DNA of 42,231 nucleotides from Porticoccaceae bacterium (GCA_029212965.1 JARGOV010000006.1:53303-95533), one strand, 5' to 3'; counted from the first letter of the stretch, positions 6,852 through 41,465 are shown. The notes: generated by a model from the letters alone, not told the origin. Numbers and translations are program-made.

Positions 6852-7355
6852 ATGATTCGTGTCGGTCAGGGTTTTGATGTGCACGCTTTTGGTGATTGTG
6901 CTTGCGAAGGTGGTGCTGAGCCTGTGCATATTGTACTTGGTGGCGTGAATATTCCTTTTGACCGCCCGTTGCTCGCCCACTCCGATGGCGATGTGTTACT
7001 GCATGCGCTTTGCGATGCCTTGCTCGGTGCGGCGGGTTTGGGTGATATTGGTCGTCACTTTCCCGATACAGATTCACGCTACAAAAATATTAGTAGCCGG
7101 CATTTACTGCGAGAGGTCATGGTCTTGCTCACCCAACATCGTTGGCAGCTCGGTAATGCCGATTTAACTATTATTGCCCAGGCGCCGCGTATGGCGCCGC
7201 ACAGGGGGGCTATGGCGGAGAATATAGCGGCTGATCTGGCCTGTCGTTGTGAACAAATCAATGTCAAAGCGACCACCACGGAAACCCTCGGCTTTACTGG
7301 CAGGGGTGAGGGCATCGCCTGCTTGGCGACAGTCCTTCTTGAGTCGCTCGATTGA
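6852..7355 (+). CDS. ispF: 2-C-methyl-D-erythritol 2,4-cyclodiphosphate synthase
   Basis: [64 protein letters not shown]. Confidence 0.97.
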
Positions 7356-7459
7356 GTGATAGCTGAAAGCCTTGGTTTCGTGCTCACTGCTTGCCTTAAG
7401 CTGAAAGGGGTAAACAAGAAGCAAACTCACCGGTGCGCAGGTAATCTCAGCGATAGGCT

Positions 7460-7509
7460 ATAGCCCCTGGGTAAATATAGCCCTGGGTAAATATAGCGCC
7501 TGGGCAAAG
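7460..7509. repeat. Three imperfect ~17-bp tandem units (ATAGCCCCTGGGTAAAT / ATAGCCCTGGGTAAAT / ATAGCGCCTGGGCAAAG) in the ispF-truD gap
   Basis: Read directly: units at 7460-7476, 7477-7492 and 7493-7509. Confidence 0.85.
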
Positions 7510-7556
7510 ATGCTAGAAGAAAACGATGAAACAATATTGGATTGTGAGACCTATTA

Positions 7557-8537
7557 ATGCCTCAAACTAAGCCCCAATTTTCGCGCAATTTTGCCCACGC
7601 CTATCCAGTATTGGCGGGTTCTGCCGAGCTAAAGACGTTGCCTGAAGACTTTGTGGTGGAAGAAATATTTGATGAGACGAGCTTTAGCGGAGAGGGGAAA
7701 CACGTTTGTCTGCAAATTCGTAAACGTGAGCAAAATACCCGCTGGGTAGCTGCGGCGCTGGCAGTAGTGGCGAATGTTGCTGAAGCGGATATTGGTTTTT
7801 GTGGCATGAAAGATCGCCATGCGATTACCACGCAATGGTTTAGTGTCACCCATGCCGATGAGTGGCGTATATCTCCGTTGGCAATACCCGGTTGCGAAGT
7901 GCTGCAAGTGGTGAGACATCAACGCAAATTGCGCCGGGGTAGTCATCAAGGTAATCACTTTGCCATTCGCCTGCGCAAGGTCAGTGAGTCTAGTGACAGT
8001 AAGAGACTTGATGAGCGCTTGAAACTGATCGCAGAAAAAGGCGTGCCGAATTACTTTGGCGAGCAACGCTTCGGTATTGAAGGTCAAAATTTAGTGGAAG
8101 CTGATCGCTTGTTGCGCCGTTGTCGCCACCGGAAAATGGCGGGGCGCCAGGCAATCTACATCTCAGCGGCCCGCTCCTATTTGTTTAATCAGGTGCTTGC
8201 AGAGCGGGTGAAACAAAACAACTGGTCGCAAGCATTAGAGGGCGAGATTGTCCCCCAGGGGCCTTTGTGGGGGCGTGGCAGGAGTTGTTCAAAGGGTGCC
8301 TTGTCGCAACTGGAAAACAATATCTTGGCCGATTATCAACCGTGGTGTAACGCACTTGAGCATCTTGGCCTCGAGCAGCAACGGCGCGATCTACAGTTGT
8401 TACCCCAAGGTCTGGAATGGCAGTGGCAGGGTCAGGACCTATGTTTATCTTTCAAACTCTCGATTGGTACTTATGCAACAACGGTGCTACGAGAGTTATT
8501 GCAAGTCGATACGCCAGCGCCAAGGGCTGTGCTATAG
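7557..8537 (+). CDS. truD: tRNA pseudouridine(13) synthase
   Basis: DIGFCGMKDRHAITTQWFSV (TruD motif); PNYFGEQRFGIEGQN; position after ispF. Confidence 0.96.
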   Translation: MPQTKPQFSRNFAHAYPVLAGSAELKTLPEDFVVEEIFDETSFSGEGKHVCLQIRKREQNTRWVAAALAVVANVAEADIGFCGMKDRHAITTQWFSVTHADEWRISPLAIPGCEVLQVVRHQRKLRRGSHQGNHFAIRLRKVSESSDSKRLDERLKLIAEKGVPNYFGEQRFGIEGQNLVEADRLLRRCRHRKMAGRQAIYISAARSYLFNQVLAERVKQNNWSQALEGEIVPQGPLWGRGRSCSKGALSQLENNILADYQPWCNALEHLGLEQQRRDLQLLPQGLEWQWQGQDLCLSFKLSIGTYATTVLRELLQVDTPAPRAVL

Positions 8538-8572
8538 TTTCGGCGGTTTTTTGCTAAATTTTTGTAGAGAAA

Positions 8573-9259
8573 GTGAGGGGGAGCATAGTGGGCTCAGTGG
8601 ATTTTGACGGGGTGGGCATGACCTCGCAACGCACTCGTGGGCGCCTTGTTCAGCGGCTTAAAGATCAAGGCATTACAGATCAAAAGGTGCTCGATGTTAT
8701 ACGCGTGACCCCACGTCATTTATTTCTCGACGAAGCTCTTTCCCATCGTGCCTACGAGGACACGGCCCTGCCTATTGGTCACGCTCAGACAATTTCCCAA
8801 CCCTATATCGTCGCTTTAATGACGCAGATCTTGCTGTCTCGCGGGCCTCTAAAGCGTGTCTTAGAAATTGGTACTGGTTCAGGCTATCAGGCCGCAATAC
8901 TGGCGCAGCTGGTGGATGAAGTCTATTCCGTCGAGCGAATTAAACCGTTGTTAATTAAAGCGCGAAGCTTATTTCGTCAGCTACGGTTGCGAAATATCAT
9001 TACTTCTCACAGCGATGGTGGTGTTGGTTGGTCTGAAAACGGGCTTTACGACGGTATTATTGCCACTGCCGCTCCTGAACAGGTGCCTGATGAACTGCTT
9101 TATCAATTGGCGCCTGATGGGTTGCTAGTTATTCCTGTAGGTACTGGCGAGCAACAGGAACTGCGACTGATATCTCGTCAGGGCGATACTTATAAGTTTG
9201 AAGAGGAGGTTATTGAGCGTGTACGTTTTGTGCCGCTACTTGGCGGCACATCCCGTTGA
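8573..9259 (+). CDS. pcm: Protein-L-isoaspartate O-methyltransferase (start may be 8588 or 8618)
   Basis: [74 protein letters not shown]. Confidence 0.95.
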
Positions 9260-9271
9260 TGGTGGCATAGC

Positions 9272-10192
9272 ATGAATAATTTTAGTACTTATTTAGTATT
9301 GTTCTTAAAGGGTATGGCCATGGGTGCTGCAGATGTTGTGCCCGGTGTTTCAGGCGGTACGATCGCTTTTATCTCAGGTATTTACGAAGAATTACTTCGC
9401 TCAATTCGCGCTTGTACCCCCCTTGCTTTGGTTAGCTTGTTCCGTGATGGTCCGCGGGTTTTTTGGCGGCGTATTAATGGGACTTTTTTGGTTGTGCTGT
9501 TCAGTGGCATCTTGTTAAGTATTCTTACTTTGGCAAAATTTATCACCCATTTCCTCCATGAGCACCCTTTATTACTGTGGTCATTTTTCTTTGGCCTAAT
9601 AGTGGGGTCTATTGTCTTGATTTGGCAGCAGTTAGAGCATAAAAGTGTTTGGGAATATTTATCTTTGCTATCGGGTCTGTGTGCTGCTCTGGCCGCCGCA
9701 TTTGCTCCACCTGTGCAGCCAGAGCCAACATTCTTGTCTGTTTTTGGCGCAGGTATGTTAGCGATTTGCGCGATGATACTGCCGGGTATATCAGGCAGTT
9801 TTATTCTACTTTTGCTGGGTATGTACTCGGTGATACTTGGAGCTATTAGCCGAGCAGACCTTTCTTTACTGGCGATATTTTCCCTCGGTTGTGTTGTTGG
9901 GCTTATGGTATTTTCACGTTTTTTGTCATGGCTTTTGAAGCGTTTTTATGGGGTGACATTGTCAGTCCTGACAGGTTTTCTAGCTGGCTCTCTTGTTATG
10001 GTTTGGCCCTGGAAATATTCAACATTAGGGACTGACAAAGAGTATGCAGATGCATTGCATTTATTGCTGCCTTCGCAATATGAGCAGGCGGCTGGTGATG
10101 CGCAATTGTTTGCAGTGCTCAGTTTGATGGCAGTCGGCTTTGCTGTGGTGATAATACTGGAATACATTGGTAATAAACGAGCACCACTTTGA
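9272..10192 (+). CDS. DUF368-family membrane protein (PopT-like undecaprenyl-phosphate translocase family)
   Basis: FLKGMAMGAADVVPGVSGGTIAFISGIYEELLRSI and ILPGISGSFILLLLGMY repeated DUF368 motifs; polytopic. Confidence 0.9.
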   Translation: MNNFSTYLVLFLKGMAMGAADVVPGVSGGTIAFISGIYEELLRSIRACTPLALVSLFRDGPRVFWRRINGTFLVVLFSGILLSILTLAKFITHFLHEHPLLLWSFFFGLIVGSIVLIWQQLEHKSVWEYLSLLSGLCAALAAAFAPPVQPEPTFLSVFGAGMLAICAMILPGISGSFILLLLGMYSVILGAISRADLSLLAIFSLGCVVGLMVFSRFLSWLLKRFYGVTLSVLTGFLAGSLVMVWPWKYSTLGTDKEYADALHLLLPSQYEQAAGDAQLFAVLSLMAVGFAVVIILEYIGNKRAPL

Positions 10193-29744: not shown

Positions 29745-31538
29745 TTAACATCTAATGCGTAGCATATCATTGCAGAAAATTTTCATAGCATCATGTTGCC
29801 AATTGCCAGTTAAAATACCAAAAATTCTTAATTTGCGTATGTTTTTATAGTACTCTATTTTTTTTAGTGTGTTGTTCTCTAGGGGGAAACGTCCGTCGGA
29901 GACGACAAGTATGTCGCTTTTTTCCCATCCTTCTTCAGTTTGTTTTTGCAGTGCCAGATTAATTACTTGGTGCAGGTCAGTGCCGCCATGGAATGAAAAC
30001 TGTAAAAACGCCAATAGCTCGGTCAGCCCCCCACAACGCAAATCGAGTTGGTGACAGGTGGTGTCTCGAGGGCCACTAAAGGAAAATAGGTGGCAGGGAC
30101 GCTGTTCACGATGGGCAATGTTTAGCGCTTCAAGAACGGCCGCTTTGGCAATGTACTCTGGCTCACCCTGCATTGACCCGGAGGTGTCGAGACAGACAAT
30201 AATGGGGCCTCGACCGAGGCTGGATTTATCCCTTTGCGCCTGACTATTGAGGGAGCCTCTTTTCATCAATGCCCCTTTGTTTTTCTCTCCAAGGCTATGC
30301 TTACCCCGGTGTTGATAGAGTAACAGTAAGCGCTCTGCACGCCTGGCATGCCAAAGCGTTTTCAATGTTGGGTGGCAGAGCAGGACCGTTTCTGAGGGCA
30401 GCATGCGGTTAATATCGTCACCGCGCTCGATGCCGTCCATTTCGAGGGTTTTACGTGGGACTTTCTTATGGCGCTGATTCTGTCCTTGGGCATTTGAAAG
30501 AATCTGCGTTTCAGCACGACGGCTTGCTGCGGCAAAATTGGCATCGCCGGCAATTTCCTCTTTACGCCCTAAGGCGTTAATAAAATGAATTAATTCGGGT
30601 TGCTCTTTAATGCGCTGGCGATAGCGGATAATGTCGCGCCATCCCTGAGAGCTAAGTAACCCCGTACTCAAGTCCCAGCCCCGCCCTGGGAGTTTTTTAA
30701 TTGCTGTGCTTTGCTGAGTGAGTGCAAGCCCAGTGGTGTTTTCTCGCTGTTTGTTTTTATGCGCTATTTCTTGTTCTAGCCTGCTCAGCAGCTGCCATTG
30801 ATTAGCGATACCCTGCCAACGCTGTTGCAGATTGTCGATAGCGTCTTTTCCAATGCTATCTTGTTTGTCATCGTGTGCCTCACCTTGCGGAAATGGTTCG
30901 CTGTGAGTTTGTTGTGTTTTAGTGTTGTTAGCATCATCTGTTGTATGAGCTGGACTTTGCAGGTTGGCAGTAGAAGGGGCGTGGTCGTGTTGAGCTAAGC
31001 CTTCAGGCCGGTTTTTAAGGTCTTTTGGCTGTCGAGTTTTTGTTTCTTTATTGTGCCCGCTATCGGGTGATGATGAGCTGTCATAGGAGCCGCTGCGGCT
31101 TGTCGGCATTTGTACGTGGTCTGCCAAGCCCTCTTCATCGCGAAAGGACGACGCTTTATCTTTGATGTTCTGGCGTTGCGCGAGCTTATCGTGAAATTTA
31201 TTCGCCGTTTTAGTGAGGTAGTCTTCGGCGCTACTAACACCCTCGCAAATATCTTTAAGCACGCTATCCGTAATATCTTCCTGGCCCCGGCAAAAGTCGG
31301 GCAGTTCGAGAGTTTCGATACGCATTAACAGTGTCTTGCACAGCGTTTTTTCTGGCCAACACAGGCTGTCCATTTCCGGTAACTCTCCGGAGAGAAGCTT
31401 TTCGCGCCATTGTAATATGCCCCGTGCCCGCGTCAGCAATGAGCCGTGAGTGTGGGTAATGACGACATCGTAGAGGGTGTCGGGTAGGGTATCGAGTGCG
31501 GAAAATTCTTGCTCAAGCTGGCCCAGATTAAGACGCAT
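29745..31538 (-). CDS. VWA-domain protein, ViaA-like (partner of MoxR ATPase)
   Basis: MIDAS motif IVCLDTSGSMQGEPEYIAKAAVLEALNIAHREQRPCHLFSFSG; GGTDLHQVINLALQ; ILVVSDGRFP; adjacent to the MoxR ATPase. Confidence 0.85.
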   Translation of the reverse strand: MRLNLGQLEQEFSALDTLPDTLYDVVITHTHGSLLTRARGILQWREKLLSGELPEMDSLCWPEKTLCKTLLMRIETLELPDFCRGQEDITDSVLKDICEGVSSAEDYLTKTANKFHDKLAQRQNIKDKASSFRDEEGLADHVQMPTSRSGSYDSSSSPDSGHNKETKTRQPKDLKNRPEGLAQHDHAPSTANLQSPAHTTDDANNTKTQQTHSEPFPQGEAHDDKQDSIGKDAIDNLQQRWQGIANQWQLLSRLEQEIAHKNKQRENTTGLALTQQSTAIKKLPGRGWDLSTGLLSSQGWRDIIRYRQRIKEQPELIHFINALGRKEEIAGDANFAAASRRAETQILSNAQGQNQRHKKVPRKTLEMDGIERGDDINRMLPSETVLLCHPTLKTLWHARRAERLLLLYQHRGKHSLGEKNKGALMKRGSLNSQAQRDKSSLGRGPIIVCLDTSGSMQGEPEYIAKAAVLEALNIAHREQRPCHLFSFSGPRDTTCHQLDLRCGGLTELLAFLQFSFHGGTDLHQVINLALQKQTEEGWEKSDILVVSDGRFPLENNTLKKIEYYKNIRKLRIFGILTGNWQHDAMKIFCNDMLRIRC

Positions 31539-31560
31539 GTTAGTCTCTGAGTTAGCTCAG

Positions 31561-33183
31561 CTAGGCTGTTTTACTGCTTGAGTAAGTTGACGTTGATGTC
31601 GATTGGCGTGATGCCTTCCGCTTGCCAAGCTGCTGGTAGGCGGCAATAACGTTTTGCAGGCGGCGTTCAAAATTGGACACTTTTTGCAAATTATCACTCA
31701 AGACTTGTCTCGCGCTACCGAGCACAGAGGAGGTGATCCACAGGTGCTGGCCCAATGCTTGTTCAATGGCAGCGTCGCTGTGCTCCAGGCTGTTACGTAA
31801 AGTGGCTATGTCGGCGGCCAATTTTTTATTTTCATCGAGTCGGCCTTGAATAAAGGTGTCCGAGTGTACGGTGGGCTCCAAGCATGGCGGGTTTTGGTGG
31901 CGCAATATTAAGCGGTTGGCAGGGTGGGCAATATACTGGTCTATATGCTGCCAGTGGCCGTCGATATGACACTGCTGATAATGCTGGTCAAAAAACCTAT
32001 CACTCAACTCGCGCTTAGTATAACCCTGGTTGTCGTTGCTGCGGTCATCTTGATCGGGGGGTGATAAATACAGCGCCAGACCGTCGCGGTGGCGCCACTC
32101 TCGCTCGATCTCTGTGGTGGTTTTTTGGCCTTCGCGGTTGTAATAGAGGCGTTGACCTTTGTCGTTGTTGATTTGGGTTTGACTCTTTTGATCAGTTTGT
32201 AGGGTGCTTTCCCAGGTGGCGATTAATTTTTCCAGTCGCTCGGTTTTAAAGCCACTGCCAGCGCCAATTTGCGTGCTCAACCAACGCTCAATAATGGGCT
32301 GCTCGGCGGGTGTATTCCACAGGCAATGTTGCAGCAGGTAACAGTCCCATAGCGACACCTGTGTTGCGCTACCTGTTTTGCTCGGTGGCTCGCCATGGGT
32401 TTGGGCATTGGTGAAGGCGGCTACTTTTAATAGTTTGACGACCTTGCGCCAGCGCCGATCCGAGACCTCGATATTTTGTGTCGCGAGATAGAGGCGAAGG
32501 GCTTTAAGTAATGACAAGGCATCATCGGATAGTGACACCGTGCGCGCCGCTATTTGTAGGTTATCGACTTCGGCGTGACTTAAGCGATCCAGCAAATCGG
32601 GTTCGCGGCTTTGGTCATCGAGTTCTAGCAAAGCGACAAAGTTTTCGTCAGCGACCGACTCTACTGCGTGGCGGCAGATAAAGCGGTCATAGAGCGCTTG
32701 TAGTTCGTCGTCTTCGGGCAGCTCGTTGCTGGCACCGACAACGGAGATCAGGGGCACTTTTACCCGGCAATCACCGTTGTCAAACTCCCCTTCGTTGAGC
32801 AGCGTGAGTAAAGTGTTGAGTATGGCGCTATTGGCTTTGAATACTTCGTCGAGAAAGGCAATATTCGCCGTCGGCAGGTAGCGCTCGGTGAGGCGTTGAT
32901 AGCGATCACTTTCCAAGGCCTTAATCGATAGTGGCCCGAATAATTCGTCGGGTACCGAAAAACGCGTTAACAGGCGCTCGAAATAATGGCCCGGTTGAAA
33001 GGCTAAATGCAAGCGGCGGGCGAGCACACTTTTGGCCGTGCCGGGTGGCCCTATCAGCAGAGTGTGTTCACCACTGAGAGCGGCTAATAAGGTTAAGCGG
33101 GCCGCCGTCTCCCGCTCCAGTAAGCCACTTTCCATGCACCCCAGTAAGCGTTGTAGGCGCGCTTTTAGCGGATCTTTTTCCAA
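31561..33183 (-). CDS. MoxR-family AAA+ ATPase, RavA-like
   Basis: LLIGPPGTAKSVLARRLHLAF (Walker A); ERLLTRFSVPDELFGPLSIKALESDRYQRLTERYLPTANIAFLDEVFKANSAILNTLLTLLNEGEF; VGASNELPEDDELQALYDRF. Closely matches the E. coli RavA motif pattern from memory. Confidence 0.88.
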   Translation of the reverse strand: MEKDPLKARLQRLLGCMESGLLERETAARLTLLAALSGEHTLLIGPPGTAKSVLARRLHLAFQPGHYFERLLTRFSVPDELFGPLSIKALESDRYQRLTERYLPTANIAFLDEVFKANSAILNTLLTLLNEGEFDNGDCRVKVPLISVVGASNELPEDDELQALYDRFICRHAVESVADENFVALLELDDQSREPDLLDRLSHAEVDNLQIAARTVSLSDDALSLLKALRLYLATQNIEVSDRRWRKVVKLLKVAAFTNAQTHGEPPSKTGSATQVSLWDCYLLQHCLWNTPAEQPIIERWLSTQIGAGSGFKTERLEKLIATWESTLQTDQKSQTQINNDKGQRLYYNREGQKTTTEIEREWRHRDGLALYLSPPDQDDRSNDNQGYTKRELSDRFFDQHYQQCHIDGHWQHIDQYIAHPANRLILRHQNPPCLEPTVHSDTFIQGRLDENKKLAADIATLRNSLEHSDAAIEQALGQHLWITSSVLGSARQVLSDNLQKVSNFERRLQNVIAAYQQLGKRKASRQSTSTSTYSSSKTA

Positions 33184-35084
33184 ACTACAATATCCTTGAT
33201 ATGGCGGTACAAAGTGCTCGGGCTGGTGGTGCGAATCGTCTCAAGTAGTTCGTCGAGCTTAAACTTGCCATGCAGTTCACGCACCACGCCAACTTGCTCC
33301 ATATCGACCAGACCCGATTCTCGGGCGTGCTCTTCAAAGGCTTTGTTCTTCCAGAAAAAGGCACCGGGCATGGTGGTGGGTATCACCAGCACAAAGAACA
33401 GCGAGCGGCTTATGGCACCAGCGCTTATCATCAATAGTGCCAATGTCCACCAGGCGGTGAAAGCCAGGTTGCCACCGGGGGCAGTGACGAGCAAGAGCAA
33501 GGCCGTGGCGAAGCTCAGGCCGAGTAAGACATTGCGGGTGATCCAGGCCTTGCCATATTGCGTGGTCTGTAAATACCAAGAGGCTGCGCCTTCATTTTCA
33601 AGGCTGCCCATGGCGCGGCTGTGGGCGATATGGCCGATCAGTTCAAGGCCAAGGCCGAGGGCAATCAGTACCATTAAAGGGCTGGCCAATGCCAACAGGG
33701 CTTGCTCGTTACTGATTAAGGGCAAGCTAATAAGACCTGTCAGCAGCGCGCCAAAACTGACGGTGTTGCCAAAAAACGCGCTACCGGTCTGCCAGTGATC
33801 CCAGAAGGGTCGGGCCTTAATGCGGTAGATCTTGTACATGTAATAGAGACCAATAAGACCGCTAAGGGCGCCGAGCACACCTGAGGCATTGGCGAGAAAG
33901 TTGAACAGCGTATTGTCAAAAATGGAGAAAAAGCCATAGGCCATCAAAAAGGTATAGAACCCTGAGACGCCGGCAATTTCGCGACTCAGCGGCGATAGGC
34001 GCAGGTTATTAAAGCCCCGGTAAAAACGATGGGGTTTACCCAGGTGCATGTTCAGCTTGAAAAGGCCGTAAGTGAGCAGGCTAAACATAATACCCAGTAG
34101 GGGGAGTTTGACGGCGCTGCTATTGAGGGCACTTAACGCCTCAATATTGATCAGGCCGGCGCTGACAATGATTAAAAAAGCGCCGAGCACTGCTTGGGTA
34201 CTGAGGGTAAAAATGACGTGGGCACTTTCGTGTGAAGTGAGTAGCTTGCGCCAGTTAAAGTGCTTCTTGTCACCACTTTTTTTGTCGACCTTGGGCTTGA
34301 AAATACCGACGCTATCGTCTTTGTGGTATTTCATGGGCATGGCGTCAGTGCGGGTCATTTCCCGGTGAGTCGAGCGGGTCTGTTGAAAACGAATGTTGGG
34401 TTGGGTGATGTCGGTGGTGGGGAAACCGGGAATCGCCGTTTTTGCCTCAATGCGATTTTCGGGAATATTTTCGACCACGCCAAAATCCAGCGCGTTACCC
34501 AAACAGGCCGAGACACAGGCGGGCTTAAGGCCGACTTCAAGGCGGTCAACACACATATTACATTTGGTGACCTGCCCTTTGACGGGGTCGAGCTGGGGTG
34601 CGTTATAGGGGCAGACCCAGGTGCAGTAACCACAGCCAAAACAAATATCAGGGTCTTGCAGCACGGCGCCGTATTCGGCGTACTTGGTGTAGGCGCGCGT
34701 GGGACAGCCTTTCAAGCACACCGGATCGTCGCAGTGGTTGCAGGCCATGGAAATATTGATGCGCTGGTAGTCCGGGTAGGTGCCGCCCTCGACAAAGCCC
34801 ACCGAGCGGAAGGCAATATGGGCGGGGTTGTCGTTCTTTTCACTACAGGCCGCTTCGCAGGCATGGCAGCCGATGCAGTTGTCGGCGTTGAGAAAAAACC
34901 CGTGCTGCTTGTAACGGTTGGGGTTGTCGCCAATGCCGGGGTCACCATTGATGTTTAAACTCTGGCAGTGCAGCTCACTGTCTTCATCGATTAAATCAAT
35001 TAAATTGCCGTGTTGGTTTACCGCTTTGGTTTCTTTATCCCAAAGGAAGCTGTATTCGGGTTCGTCACTGCGTACGTCTAACAT
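33165..35084 (-). CDS. Fused DmsB-like four-cluster ferredoxin + DmsC-like membrane anchor
   Basis: Cys clusters CIGCHACEAAC, CNHCDDPVCLKGC, CFGCGYCTWVC, CNMCVDRLEVGLKPACVSAC, followed by an ~8-TM DmsC-like domain (AHVIFTLSTQAVLGAFLIIVSAG...KLNMHLGKPHRFYRGFNNLRLSPLSREI). Confidence 0.9.
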   Translation of the reverse strand: MLDVRSDEPEYSFLWDKETKAVNQHGNLIDLIDEDSELHCQSLNINGDPGIGDNPNRYKQHGFFLNADNCIGCHACEAACSEKNDNPAHIAFRSVGFVEGGTYPDYQRINISMACNHCDDPVCLKGCPTRAYTKYAEYGAVLQDPDICFGCGYCTWVCPYNAPQLDPVKGQVTKCNMCVDRLEVGLKPACVSACLGNALDFGVVENIPENRIEAKTAIPGFPTTDITQPNIRFQQTRSTHREMTRTDAMPMKYHKDDSVGIFKPKVDKKSGDKKHFNWRKLLTSHESAHVIFTLSTQAVLGAFLIIVSAGLINIEALSALNSSAVKLPLLGIMFSLLTYGLFKLNMHLGKPHRFYRGFNNLRLSPLSREIAGVSGFYTFLMAYGFFSIFDNTLFNFLANASGVLGALSGLIGLYYMYKIYRIKARPFWDHWQTGSAFFGNTVSFGALLTGLISLPLISNEQALLALASPLMVLIALGLGLELIGHIAHSRAMGSLENEGAASWYLQTTQYGKAWITRNVLLGLSFATALLLLVTAPGGNLAFTAWWTLALLMISAGAISRSLFFVLVIPTTMPGAFFWKNKAFEEHARESGLVDMEQVGVVRELHGKFKLDELLETIRTTSPSTLYRHIKDIVVWKKIR

Positions 35085-37494: not shown

Positions 37495-38406
37495 TTAAGG
37501 CATCAGCAGACTATTTTTACTAACCAGTACGACATTGCCACCCACCCGTAGTGTGGTAGGTTTATTGGCGTGATTGTCCATTTCAATAGCCAGTACACTG
37601 CGCCGGGTTTCGGGGGTGCCTCTGTCGATAATAAAGGTGTAAGTCCCCTCACGAATAGCATCATGTGAGCCGAGGTAGCCGGTAAAACACGACATTGCAG
37701 AGCCGATAGGTGGATCTTCATGCACGCCGATGCTGGGGCCTAAAAGGCGGGCATGGAAGTCGGTATCGCTGTTGTCGGTTTTATTACTAAACACCAGTAT
37801 TTCCTGGGCAGCCATGGCTGGCGCACTCGACTGGCTCCAGGCCTTCATGTCGAAGCGCGCCTTGCGCACGGCAGCCTGGGAGGTCAGTGGTAGAATTAAA
37901 TAGGGTAGGTCAATAGACACCAAGCGAGTTTGAAAGGTGCGGGTGTCGATATCACTTTCGTCAATGGATAGCAGAGCGGCAAGCTCACTAGCACGGGGTG
38001 TATAGCGGTCGACCACCGGGTCGCTGGACAGGGTGAACTGTACAAACAAAGGCTCGCCTTCAGTTTGCTCAATGTTAACGTTCAAGTCACCGGTCTTTTG
38101 TTGAAAACAAGCCGTAGCTTTGCCGTTGTTGAGGGTAATGAGCCCTTCTTCAACCAGGGCTTTAGCGGTGGCGAGTACCGGGTGGCCCGCAAAACTGACT
38201 TCTTTAAGCGGTGTGAAGATACGCAGCTTAAAGTGATTGTCCTGTTCACCGGGGCTGACAAAAACGGTTTCCGAAAGATTTAGTTCTCTGGCAATCAGCG
38301 ACATTTGCTGGTCGTCAATCTTTGCCGCAGCGGGAAAGACGGCAATTTGTGCACCTTGAAAAAGGGTTTGGGTAAAAACATCAGCAGTGTAAAAAGTATG
38401 AGACAT
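37495..38406 (-). CDS. PhzF-family isomerase/epimerase
   Basis: YTADVFTQTLFQGAQIAVFPAA; RELNLSETVFV; LRIFTPLKEVSFAGHPVLATAKAL; EDPPIGSAMSCFTGYL. Confidence 0.88.
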   Translation of the reverse strand: MSHTFYTADVFTQTLFQGAQIAVFPAAAKIDDQQMSLIARELNLSETVFVSPGEQDNHFKLRIFTPLKEVSFAGHPVLATAKALVEEGLITLNNGKATACFQQKTGDLNVNIEQTEGEPLFVQFTLSSDPVVDRYTPRASELAALLSIDESDIDTRTFQTRLVSIDLPYLILPLTSQAAVRKARFDMKAWSQSSAPAMAAQEILVFSNKTDNSDTDFHARLLGPSIGVHEDPPIGSAMSCFTGYLGSHDAIREGTYTFIIDRGTPETRRSVLAIEMDNHANKPTTLRVGGNVVLVSKNSLLMP

Positions 38407-38421
38407 AGCAGAATCCTTGGC

Positions 38422-38808
38422 TTAGCCGGCAACCAGTACGTTGCCGTCGGCAATTTTGACGGGAAAGGTGGCAATAGACACGCTTTCATCTTCAAAACAT
38501 TGCCCTGTGGCCAGATTAAAATGCTCTTTTAACACGGGTGATGCAACGGCGAGTTGTTCGCCGATGCTACAGAGAATACCCCGAGACAGCACATTGGCTT
38601 CACTGAAGGGATCGAAGTTGCTAATCGCATAAACCGCATCATTGGCGCTGGTGCGAAACAGGGCGATTTGTGTTTCCCTCGGGGTGTCGGCATGGAGTAG
38701 GGCTGCGACACCCGCATTGCAAGGTAAGTCTTCCAGGGCACAAATACTGATCCAGTTTTGGTCTGTTGTCACATTATCTTCCTGTACATTTTTAGTGGGG
38801 TCTTTCAT
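38422..38808 (-). CDS. nirD: Nitrite reductase (NADH) small subunit
   Basis: NWISICALEDLPCNAGVAALL...IALFRTS...VYAISNFDPFSEANVLSRGILCSIGEQLAVASPVLKEHFNLATGQCFEDE; 4-nt ATGA overlap with nirB. Confidence 0.95.
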   Translation of the reverse strand: MKDPTKNVQEDNVTTDQNWISICALEDLPCNAGVAALLHADTPRETQIALFRTSANDAVYAISNFDPFSEANVLSRGILCSIGEQLAVASPVLKEHFNLATGQCFEDESVSIATFPVKIADGNVLVAG

Positions 38809-41333
38809 GCGCTAACGAGCTCTTTTTCATCTTTTCGAGCGGGGCGAATTTGCCCGCGTTCCTCAACGAAGACAACGTTGCTGTCAGCTTTATTGCTGTT
38901 AATAAACGGACGGAACATCAACACTTTTTCTTCATCGTCGATGGTGGTTTTCCACTCGCATTGATAAGTGTCGATGACTTTAGCCATTTCGGCCTCGAGC
39001 TTTTCACCAATACCCAGGGAGTCGCTGATAATCACCTCGCGCAAATAATCGACGCCGCCATCCATGTTATCCATCCAGGTAGAGGTGCGCTGTAAGCGAT
39101 CGGCCGTTTGTACGTAGAACATCAAAAAGCGGTCGGTGTATTTGATCAGGGTTTCTGTATCGAGATCAGTGGCAAATAGATCTGCGTGACGCGGGCGCAT
39201 GCCGCCGTTGCCACAGACATACATATTCCAGCCGCTTTCAGTGGCAATGATGCCCACATCTTTACTCTGGGCCTCGGCGCACTCGCGGGTGCAGCCGGAG
39301 ACGGCAGACTTAATTTTGTGCGGCGAGCGCAACCCTTTGTAGCGGTGCTCAATTTGCAGTGCCAGCGCGACACTGTCGTTTTGGCCGTAACGACACCAGG
39401 TGCTACCGACACAGGATTTAACCGTGCGCAGGGACTTACCGTAGGCGTGGCCGGTTTCAAAACCTGCGTCGACCAGTTCTTTCCATATTTGGGGCAGTTG
39501 CTCGAGCCGCGCACCGAATAAGTCGATACGTTGTCCCCCGGTCACCTTGGTGTAAAGGTTGTATTTCTTGCCTACTTCACCGAGCACGATTAGCTTCTCG
39601 GGGGTGATTTCGCCACCGGCAATGCGCGGCACAATGGAGTAGGTGCCGTCTTTTTGCATATTGCCCAAGTAACGGTCGTTGGTGTCTTGCAGACCGAGAT
39701 GCTCGGGTTCGAGAACGTAGTCATTCCAGCAGGAAGCTAAAATAGAGGCAGCGGTGGGTTTGCAAATATCACAGCCGTAGCCACTACCGTGTTGAGCTAA
39801 CAGGTCGCTAAAGGTTTTTATTTCACCAACCCGCACCAGGTGGTAAAGCTCTTGGCGGGTGTGGGGAAAGTGCTCGCAAATGTCGGTGTTGACCTCGAGC
39901 CCCATTTTTTCGAGTTCGTTGTTGAGCACTTGGCCGACGAGTGTTTTACAACCCCCGCAACTAGTACCGGCATTGGTCGCTAAGGTGAGGTCGCCCAGCA
40001 CGGTGGCACCGTCGGAGACAGCCTGGCACAACTGACCTTTAGTGACATCGTTACAGGAACAAATTTGTGCGCCGTCAGGCAGCATATCGACGCCCATGCC
40101 GGTGGCGCCATTGCCATCGCGCTGGGGCAAAATCAGGGCATCGGGGAATTCCGGCAGGGGGATATCGTTGAGAGCCATTTGCAACAAGGTGCCGTAGTCG
40201 GCAGCATCGCCGACTAGCACAGCACCTAGCAGCCGAGTGTTGTCTGCACTGACGACGATCTTTTTATAAATCTCTTCAGTGCCGTTAACGTAGGTGTATT
40301 CTTTGGCGTTGGGGGTGTTGGCGTGGGCGTCACCGATACTCGCTACATCAATACCCATTAGCTTTAACTTGGTGCTCATGTCGGCACCCGAAAAGGCATT
40401 GTCTTCGGCATTGATGTGGTCGCAGGCAACCTGAGCCATTTTATAGCCGGGGGCAACCAGACCGTAAATGCGTCCGCTCCACATCGCGCATTCGCCGATG
40501 GCGTAAACGTCGGGGTCCGACGTTTGGCAGTGATCATTGACTACGATGCCGCCACGTTCACCCAGTTCCAGCTTGCAGTCCCGTGCCAGCGCGTCCTGCG
40601 GGCGAATACCGGCGGAGAACAGCAGCATGTCGGTTTCTATCTCGGAACCGTCAGCAAAGCTCATTTTGTGGAAGCGCTCATCACCGTCGCCGATGTTTTG
40701 GGTGTTCATGCCCAAATGGACTTTGACCCCCAGGTCTTCAATTTTTTGGCGCAGCATCGCGCCACCGCCGTCGTCAATTTGCACGGCCATTAGGCGTGGT
40801 GCAAATTCAATAACGTGGGTTTCCAGACCGAGGTCAACCAGGGCTTTCGCCGCTTCAAGGCCGAGTAAGCCACCGCCGATCACAGCACCCACTTTCGAAT
40901 TTTTAGCGGCAGCCTGCATGTCCTCGAGGTCGTCAATGGTGCGATAGACAAAGCAGTTGTCGCGGTCGTGGCCGGGTATGGGGGGCACGAAAGGAAAAGA
41001 GCCGGTGGCTAGTACCAGTTTGTCGTAGCTCAGTACCTCGCCCTTTTCGGAGGTGACCGTTTTGGCGCTGCGGTCGATGCTCACGGCTTTGTCGCCGAGG
41101 AGGACACGAATACCGTGCTGCTCGTAATAACCAGGTTCGACCAACGACAGGTCGTCGGCACTACGGCCGCAAAAGAACTCGCTGAGATGAACGCGGTCGT
41201 AGGCGATGCGGCTCTCTTCACAGAAGGTAGTCACTTCAAAGGCCGAGTATTGTGGGCTATTGACCATGGCTTCCAGGAACTTATGGCCAACCATGCCGTT
41301 GCCGATGACAAGAACGCGCTGTTTGTTACTCAT
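38805..41333 (-). CDS. nirB: Nitrite reductase (NADH) large subunit (ATG 41333 preferred; ORF open to 41351)
   Basis: RVLVIGNGMVGHKFLEAMV; BFD CSCNDVTKGQLCQAV...AGTSCGGCKTLVGQVLNNEL; siroheme/4Fe-4S VKSCVGSTWCRYGQNDSVALALQIE...AVSGCTRECAEAQSKDVGIIATESGWNMYVCGNGGMRPRHADL. Confidence 0.97.
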   Translation of the reverse strand: MSNKQRVLVIGNGMVGHKFLEAMVNSPQYSAFEVTTFCEESRIAYDRVHLSEFFCGRSADDLSLVEPGYYEQHGIRVLLGDKAVSIDRSAKTVTSEKGEVLSYDKLVLATGSFPFVPPIPGHDRDNCFVYRTIDDLEDMQAAAKNSKVGAVIGGGLLGLEAAKALVDLGLETHVIEFAPRLMAVQIDDGGGAMLRQKIEDLGVKVHLGMNTQNIGDGDERFHKMSFADGSEIETDMLLFSAGIRPQDALARDCKLELGERGGIVVNDHCQTSDPDVYAIGECAMWSGRIYGLVAPGYKMAQVACDHINAEDNAFSGADMSTKLKLMGIDVASIGDAHANTPNAKEYTYVNGTEEIYKKIVVSADNTRLLGAVLVGDAADYGTLLQMALNDIPLPEFPDALILPQRDGNGATGMGVDMLPDGAQICSCNDVTKGQLCQAVSDGATVLGDLTLATNAGTSCGGCKTLVGQVLNNELEKMGLEVNTDICEHFPHTRQELYHLVRVGEIKTFSDLLAQHGSGYGCDICKPTAASILASCWNDYVLEPEHLGLQDTNDRYLGNMQKDGTYSIVPRIAGGEITPEKLIVLGEVGKKYNLYTKVTGGQRIDLFGARLEQLPQIWKELVDAGFETGHAYGKSLRTVKSCVGSTWCRYGQNDSVALALQIEHRYKGLRSPHKIKSAVSGCTRECAEAQSKDVGIIATESGWNMYVCGNGGMRPRHADLFATDLDTETLIKYTDRFLMFYVQTADRLQRTSTWMDNMDGGVDYLREVIISDSLGIGEKLEAEMAKVIDTYQCEWKTTIDDEEKVLMFRPFINSNKADSNVVFVEERGQIRPARKDEKELVSA

Positions 41334-41465
41334 GATATTTTGTAGTCCCATTAAATACGGTTTAAAGATAAATCAGAGGCTATCGAACTAGAGCTTAAGC
41401 ATGAATTGTGCCAGCCTTGGTGGTAGTCGGCTTTGCCGGTTCAGACTAGCTGTAAAATATTCATT

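Follow-up and report, generated by a model that had tools for sequence, protein, structure and literature searches.

Why would genes for a MoxR-type AAA+ ATPase and a von Willebrand factor A (VWA) protein stand at the end of an operon for nitrate reduction? The question is raised by a 42,231 nt stretch of DNA from a Porticoccaceae bacterium (GCA_029212965.1, JARGOV010000006.1:53303-95533), here called the window. It closes with a minus-strand run of seven intact open reading frames (ORFs), which by their Pfam and NCBIfam assignments read NirB-NirD-PhzF-NasA-DmsBC-MoxR-VWA. MoxR and VWA are the two final genes of this nitrate-to-ammonium operon in some marine and other gammaproteobacteria. Since the pair always stands beside the same nitrate reductase genes (except for the VWA gene in two genomes, G450 and G560), we consider that this RavA-ViaA-like pair probably remodels the adjoining membrane-linked nitrate reductase. 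The first-pass annotation of the window had described a RavA-ViaA-type pair wired into a nitrate reduction operon, and the domain families and the conserved linkage both support this description.

Linkage of the pair to the NasA-DmsBC genes

Most of the genomes compared are metagenome bins, so that missing genes and contig ends matter, and all counts refer to samples. GTDB species genomes were scanned with a MoxR alignment using two strict peptide patterns, a search that reaches near relatives only. It returned 10 loci, with DmsBC directly upstream of MoxR in all of them and NasA present wherever the contig reaches that far. The VWA gene lies directly downstream of MoxR in nine of the ten loci, in one of them frameshifted. 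In addition, 369 sampled gammaproteobacterial genomes were searched with MoxR and DmsBC profiles. DmsBC was found in 60 of them and a nitrate-type ATPase (scoring at least about 596 bits) in 10, every one within 500 nt of DmsBC, while the next match scored 360 bits. A further ATPase fragment, followed by the VWA gene, lies at a contig start in genome G564.

When the GTDB scan, the 369-genome sample and order-level finds were combined and duplicates removed, 19 of 19 full-length nitrate-type ATPase loci, from at least eight family-level groups, adjoined DmsBC, and no full-length copy was found away from DmsBC in the genomes searched. This is the conserved linkage for which the first-pass annotation had proposed a genome search. 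Because all full-length relatives in other genomes also adjoin DmsBC, the adjacency is far above chance, and a strain-specific linkage is ruled out. The VWA gene was present in all eight ATPase-bearing genomes searched for it. In the Halothiobacillaceae-type genomes G450 and G560 it lies outside the operon and is retained elsewhere (584-593 bits), with its characteristic linker motif (see below) and no nitrate genes around it.

Our reading of the ORFs confirmed the 19-nt overlap of DmsBC and MoxR and the 22-nt gap between the MoxR stop and the VWA start that had been annotated before. No start codon other than TTG is available ahead of Met17 of the ATPase, and the residues upstream of Met17 are conserved. 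The same TTG within a 19-nt overlap was seen in 9 of 13 other loci, including bins of Halothiobacillaceae and Methylococcaceae; several others have a 4-nt overlap. The conservation of this layout across loci makes it likely that translation of DmsBC and MoxR is coupled.

Relation to RavA-ViaA and other MoxR/VWA systems

The Walker A and Walker B (E113) motifs of the ATPase are intact, and its nearest solved structure by sequence is RavA (296 bits, AAA+ part only). Structure models were built from 25-sequence alignments. For the ATPase model (predicted local distance difference test, pLDDT, 87.5) the best Foldseek matches were RavA chains, over 519-536 columns and with E values down to 3e-28; the template modelling score against RavA of about 0.6 indicates that the domain orientation differs. 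The model predicts a domain plan of the RavA type, with an AAA+ part and a helical domain that is interrupted by a LARA-like beta insertion. An assignment to the NorQ/CbbQ (CGN) subfamily of MoxR proteins was rejected, since the helical hairpin and the beta insertion are present and the best fold is RavA. On the NCBIfam RavA model PRK13531 the protein scored 272 bits, below the cut-off of 681. In the ATPase tree the clade of enterobacterial and Vibrio RavA excludes the nitrate-linked copies, which group with two solo pairs and the pairs linked to HEPN genes (supports 100/97 on the RavA side and 87/94 on the nitrate/HEPN/solo side). We compare the pair with RavA-ViaA by analogy and not by membership. 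The phylogenetic check proposed in the first-pass annotation had a mixed outcome: different neighbours surround the closest relatives, which are linked to HEPN and restriction-modification (R-M) genes or stand alone in high-GC genomes, and a single clade of nitrate-linked ATPases is neither shown nor rejected (approximately unbiased (AU) test, p 0.33).

The model of the VWA protein comprises a helical N-domain (residues 5-111), a disordered linker (112-227), a helical middle region (228-441) and the VWA domain (446-595); its mean pLDDT is 62.7, and a comparison with solved structures is possible for the VWA part only. The protein scored 163 bits on the ViaA model PRK10997 (cut-off 500), which matched the middle and VWA regions and left the N-terminal region unmatched. 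The residues D451, S453, S455, T520 and D548 of the metal ion-dependent adhesion site (MIDAS) are invariant among 25 relatives. A DKLAQRQ...ADHV motif is kept in most nitrate-linked VWA proteins, including the two displaced copies; it is degenerate in locus L095 and absent from loci L102 and L107 as well as from the HEPN-linked or solo relatives.

Compared with known systems, the nitrate pair shares with RavA-ViaA of Escherichia coli the whole-chain ATPase fold including helical hairpin and beta insertion, the ViaA-like middle and VWA regions of the partner, the tandem genes and, as regards the proposed role, the binding of ViaA to a quinol-linked reductase (PMC10585395). Apart from clade and cut-offs, it differs in that the C-terminal part of the ATPase is unmatched to RavA by sequence, the ViaA N-domain is unmatched in the VWA protein, the latter has a long disordered linker with a motif of its own, and the pair is fixed in the nitrate operon. 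NorQ-NorD of Paracoccus denitrificans likewise combines an AAA+ gene with a protein made of N-domain, disordered linker and C-terminal MIDAS-VWA domain, beside the enzyme that it activates (PMC9976466), but NorQ belongs to the CGN subfamily and consists of one AAA+ module that lacks the C-terminal domains of the RavA type, and its client is nitric oxide reductase. In CoxD-CoxE of aerobic CO dehydrogenase, the MoxR ATPase CoxD is predicted to act on the active site of a molybdenum (Mo) enzyme (PMC2997495); this ATPase belongs to the APE2220 subfamily, its enzyme is of the xanthine oxidase type, and its role lies in Cu/S insertion.

The ATPase has some of its nearest relatives in tandem triads of a RavA-like ATPase, a VWA protein and a RiboL-PSP-HEPN protein (L207 7598-11256, L208 7216-10823, L021 7833-11485, L022 7505-11134). 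These adjoin no nitrate genes, their VWA proteins lack the DKLAQRQ...ADHV motif, and type I R-M-like genes lie near three of them (L208, L021, L022). The triad proteins of L207 and L022 had no PADLOC match beyond two marginal ones, and the triad is a candidate for an undescribed defence module. Compact solo MoxR/VWA pairs, with neither linker motif nor nitrate genes, were found in two high-GC genomes (L209 7353-10224, L210 7512-10360). MoxR-vWA ternary conflict systems have, besides variable effectors, a third component, of which VMAP and iSTAND are examples (PMC7159879). The nitrate pair was not assigned to them despite its AAA+ match to PF20030, as there is no extra large operon component and the flanking genes vary between genomes. 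It was also not assigned to a listed defence system, as PADLOC gave no match.

The probable client and proposed role of the pair

The NasA-like protein carries an active-site pair Cys155-Met156, as is typical of nitrate reductases, that is invariant in its relatives, while the aligned formate dehydrogenases have Cys-His, and it has no C-terminal [2Fe-2S] BFD domain. Its short N-terminus shows no twin-arginine signal, so the enzyme should be cytoplasmic. In the alignment the DmsB part of the fusion is ferredoxin-like, its 16 Cys forming four clusters, and DmsC is a membrane anchor of the quinol type. For these reasons NasA-DmsBC is most naturally read as a nitrate reductase that lies in the cytoplasm and is fed by quinol. 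Active site and NirBD linkage suggest that it reduces nitrate to nitrite, and no classical or other NasA was found in the window's own genome. According to a survey of the DMSO reductase family, enzymes of the Nas/Nap/Fdh branch do not occur together with four-cluster Fe-S subunits and membrane anchors (PMC7331816). As read from the genes, the NasA-DmsBC arrangement contradicts this generalisation; the operon was either overlooked there or is described in other literature.

The operon of NasA (734 amino acids, aa) and DmsBC with NirBD is widespread in gammaproteobacteria (60 of the 369 sampled genomes). Beside NasA-DmsBC genes, a classical NasA-like enzyme of about 880-920 aa is encoded in L090 (2964-5618) and L097 (2548-5310), with the C-terminal [2Fe-2S] BFD domain confirmed for L090, and such cells may hold two nitrate reductases. 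A DsrC/TusE-like protein often follows NasA-DmsBC and lies between DmsBC and MoxR in L102 (8101-8472, PF04358 confirmed) and L107 (8098-8469), which suggests a sulfur-relay or redox link. The other cases are small ORFs that follow DmsBC in L105, L106, L108, L110, L117, L119, L124 and L130.

As possible clients the first-pass annotation had named the Mo enzyme, its Fe-S/anchor subunit, or NirB. NirB lies on another contig in five genomes (G084, G004, G450, G560 and G593) while MoxR is still with NasA-DmsBC, and the NirB found beside MoxR may be of a close type (about 70-95% identity) or of a remote one (38-40%). The client is therefore likely the NasA-DmsBC complex rather than NirB. By linkage the Mo enzyme with its Fe-S/anchor subunit remains the probable client of that list, and NirB was rejected. 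The position of NirB-NirD at the head of the operon, in the window and in many relatives, would favour an action on NirB (sirohaem/Fe-S) or NirBD, to which we give hardly any probability in view of these loci. A dependence on the C-terminal tail of DmsBC was also rejected, since some pair-bearing loci lack the tail.

We propose, with somewhat better than even confidence, that the two proteins form a MoxR/VWA remodelling machine dedicated to NasA-DmsBC, the cytoplasmic and membrane-anchored enzyme, and most likely aid its assembly or re-activation. A MoxR ATPase with a predicted role at a Mo centre, CoxD, is among the precedents (PMC2997495). The proposal builds on the genes, the fold, the intact ATPase and MIDAS residues, the NasA-DmsBC linkage and the fact that the VWA gene is kept along with the ATPase; from these we infer the hexamer, the contacts, the client and the direction of the effect. 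The ATPase would probably form a RavA-type hexamer, and the VWA protein would be the adaptor that bridges this ring to NasA-DmsBC. Its middle region would dock on the helical domain of the ATPase, by analogy with the middle domain of ViaA, which docks on RavA and stimulates it in E. coli (PMC10585395). Through its MIDAS the VWA protein would hold on to an acidic patch of NasA or of the DmsB part, while the N-domain and the DKLAQRQ...ADHV motif may add another contact that is specific to the client. Powered by ATP hydrolysis, the machine would then alter the client's conformation, and the most likely outcome would be assembly or re-activation of a Mo/Fe-S enzyme that is otherwise unassembled or inactive. 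In NorQD, both the ATPase and the MIDAS are required to activate the client, and the MIDAS is dispensable for NorQ binding (PMC9976466). By analogy we infer a chaperone role of the pair. More tentatively, with slightly less than even confidence, we regard it as a separate RavA-like/ViaA-like branch, specialised in the facultative assembly or re-activation of the quinol-linked, cytoplasmic NasA-DmsBC.

Several observations weigh against this proposal. A nitrate-type ATPase is lacking in 50 of the 60 sampled DmsBC-bearing genomes. Within the window's family, the pair is present in the congeneric genomes for which the locus was read; the sister genera have retained NirB-NirD-PhzF-NasA-DmsBC, with no nitrate-type ATPase in any part of the genome. 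The grouping of NasA by family was not rejected (AU p 0.30), and fixed-site patterns in NasA are nearly balanced (15 versus 12). Moreover, RavA-ViaA of E. coli were reported to lower the activity of fumarate reductase (Frd) in vitro, which would be repression and not activation (PMC10585395).

The role of a required maturation factor, as implied by the first-pass annotation, did not hold up in view of this distribution. As most NasA-DmsBC operons lack the pair, it is an accessory and not an obligatory maturase, and the NasA-DmsBC family is able to work without it. In a DmsBC tree of 80 sequences, the label for presence or absence of the pair changes at least six times; gain and loss are indistinguishable from this distribution. 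The window's NasA is 80-84% identical to NasA of several distant pair-bearing lineages versus 73-77% to same-family genera that lack the pair, a pattern of pairwise identities that NirB and DmsBC do not show. At a given DmsBC distance, NasA has diverged further in the closest mixed comparisons than in almost any same-state comparison, though all these comparisons are not independent of each other; the NasA tree unites 12 MoxR-linked sequences (support 88/94). Scores of the NasA profile were not used here, since it was trained on MoxR-linked sequences. Because of the AU test and the site-pattern counts, coevolution of NasA with the pair is reduced to a hint.

The main rival to assembly or re-activation is a brake or quality control, by which the pair would bind NasA-DmsBC and repress or disassemble it when nitrate reduction is unwanted. 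The patchy distribution fits such a regulator better than a required maturase, but NorQD, CbbQO and CoxDE, which are likewise operon-embedded MoxR/VWA pairs, activate their neighbours. The VWA domain of ViaA binds FrdA of the membrane-bound Frd, which together with the lowered Frd activity would speak for a brake; this effect on Frd is disputed by another group, as reported in the same paper (PMC10585395). On balance we hold a brake to be unlikely. Less likely again is a general action on respiratory Fe-S complexes or the membrane, in which co-transcription with the operon only matches the conditions. In its favour, E. coli RavA-ViaA touch both Nuo and Frd, and the nearest relatives of the pair adjoin unrelated genes, but a general factor should often be unlinked, and all 19 full-length copies adjoin DmsBC. 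That a captured defence module hitch-hikes in the operon is suggested by the near relatives beside HEPN and R-M-like genes. We consider it very improbable, because the nitrate loci have no HEPN or R-M gene, overlap and position are conserved across families, and the pair is without a PADLOC match.

Gene layout and biological meaning

The coordinates of the operon and of the motifs in the pair are listed in Table 1. NirB is the first operon gene seen, and the contig ends about 0.9 kb past it.

Table 1. Genes and motifs of the nitrate operon (window positions)
Feature	Position	Strand	Basis and remarks
NirB, NAD(P)H nitrite reductase large subunit	38805..41351	-	PRK14989 1378 bits, TIGR02374 1121 bits, both above cut-off
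NirD-like Rieske subunit	38422..38808	-	TIGR02378 above cut-off; 4 nt overlap with NirB
PhzF-family isomerase	37495..38406	-	TIGR00654 above cut-off; recurrent operon member
NasA-like Mo-bis(molybdopterin guanine dinucleotide) nitrate reductase catalytic subunit, 734 aa	35148..37352	-	Fdh-alpha/NasC/NapA-type matches below equivalog cut-offs; Molybdopterin
DmsB-DmsC fusion	33165..35084	-	Fer4_11 and PF04976 DmsC above cut-off
DmsBC/MoxR overlap, 19 nt, TTG start	33165..33183	-	sequence
RavA-like MoxR AAA+ ATPase, 540 aa	31561..33183	-	PF20030 (bpMoxR)/PF07728 (AAA_5)/PF17868 (AAA_lid_8); RavA-like
Walker A GPPGTAKS (aa 45-52) of ATPase	33028..33051	-	G45, G48, A50, K51, S52 invariant in 25 relatives
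ViaA-like VWA protein, 597 aa	29745..31538	-	VWA_2; PRK10997 163 bits over aa 268-575
DKLAQRQ...ADHV motif (aa 117-142) of VWA protein	31113..31190	-	start of disordered linker; most nitrate-linked copies
MIDAS DTSGS (aa 451-455) of VWA protein	30174..30188	-	completed by T520 and D548

The PhzF-family isomerase accompanies the operon at varying positions, after NirD or after VWA (in L087 at 7222-8136, in L088 at 8568-9482), and is an operon member also in L025-L028, L032 and L214-L217. The window has a G+C content of 0.43-0.48 at about 8000-30000 versus 0.51-0.54 on both flanks; by eye, this low-GC stretch resembles a polysaccharide cluster, with asparagine-synthase-like and glycosyltransferase-like ORFs.

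In the open-access literature we found no experiment on the pair and no paper that joins MoxR with assimilatory nitrate reduction. What appears to be new is a MoxR/VWA remodelling pair of known kind with a probable client that is unrecorded in the literature searched. With the widespread NasA-DmsBC operon, nitrate assimilation would be tied to the quinol pool. There is no agreement on what RavA-ViaA does to respiratory enzymes, one reason being that in E. coli its genes are not located near any client. The nitrate pair is firmly joined to a single enzyme in certain lineages and absent from their sister genera, which would allow matched comparisons of whether such pairs assemble, repair or restrain Fe-S/Mo enzymes.

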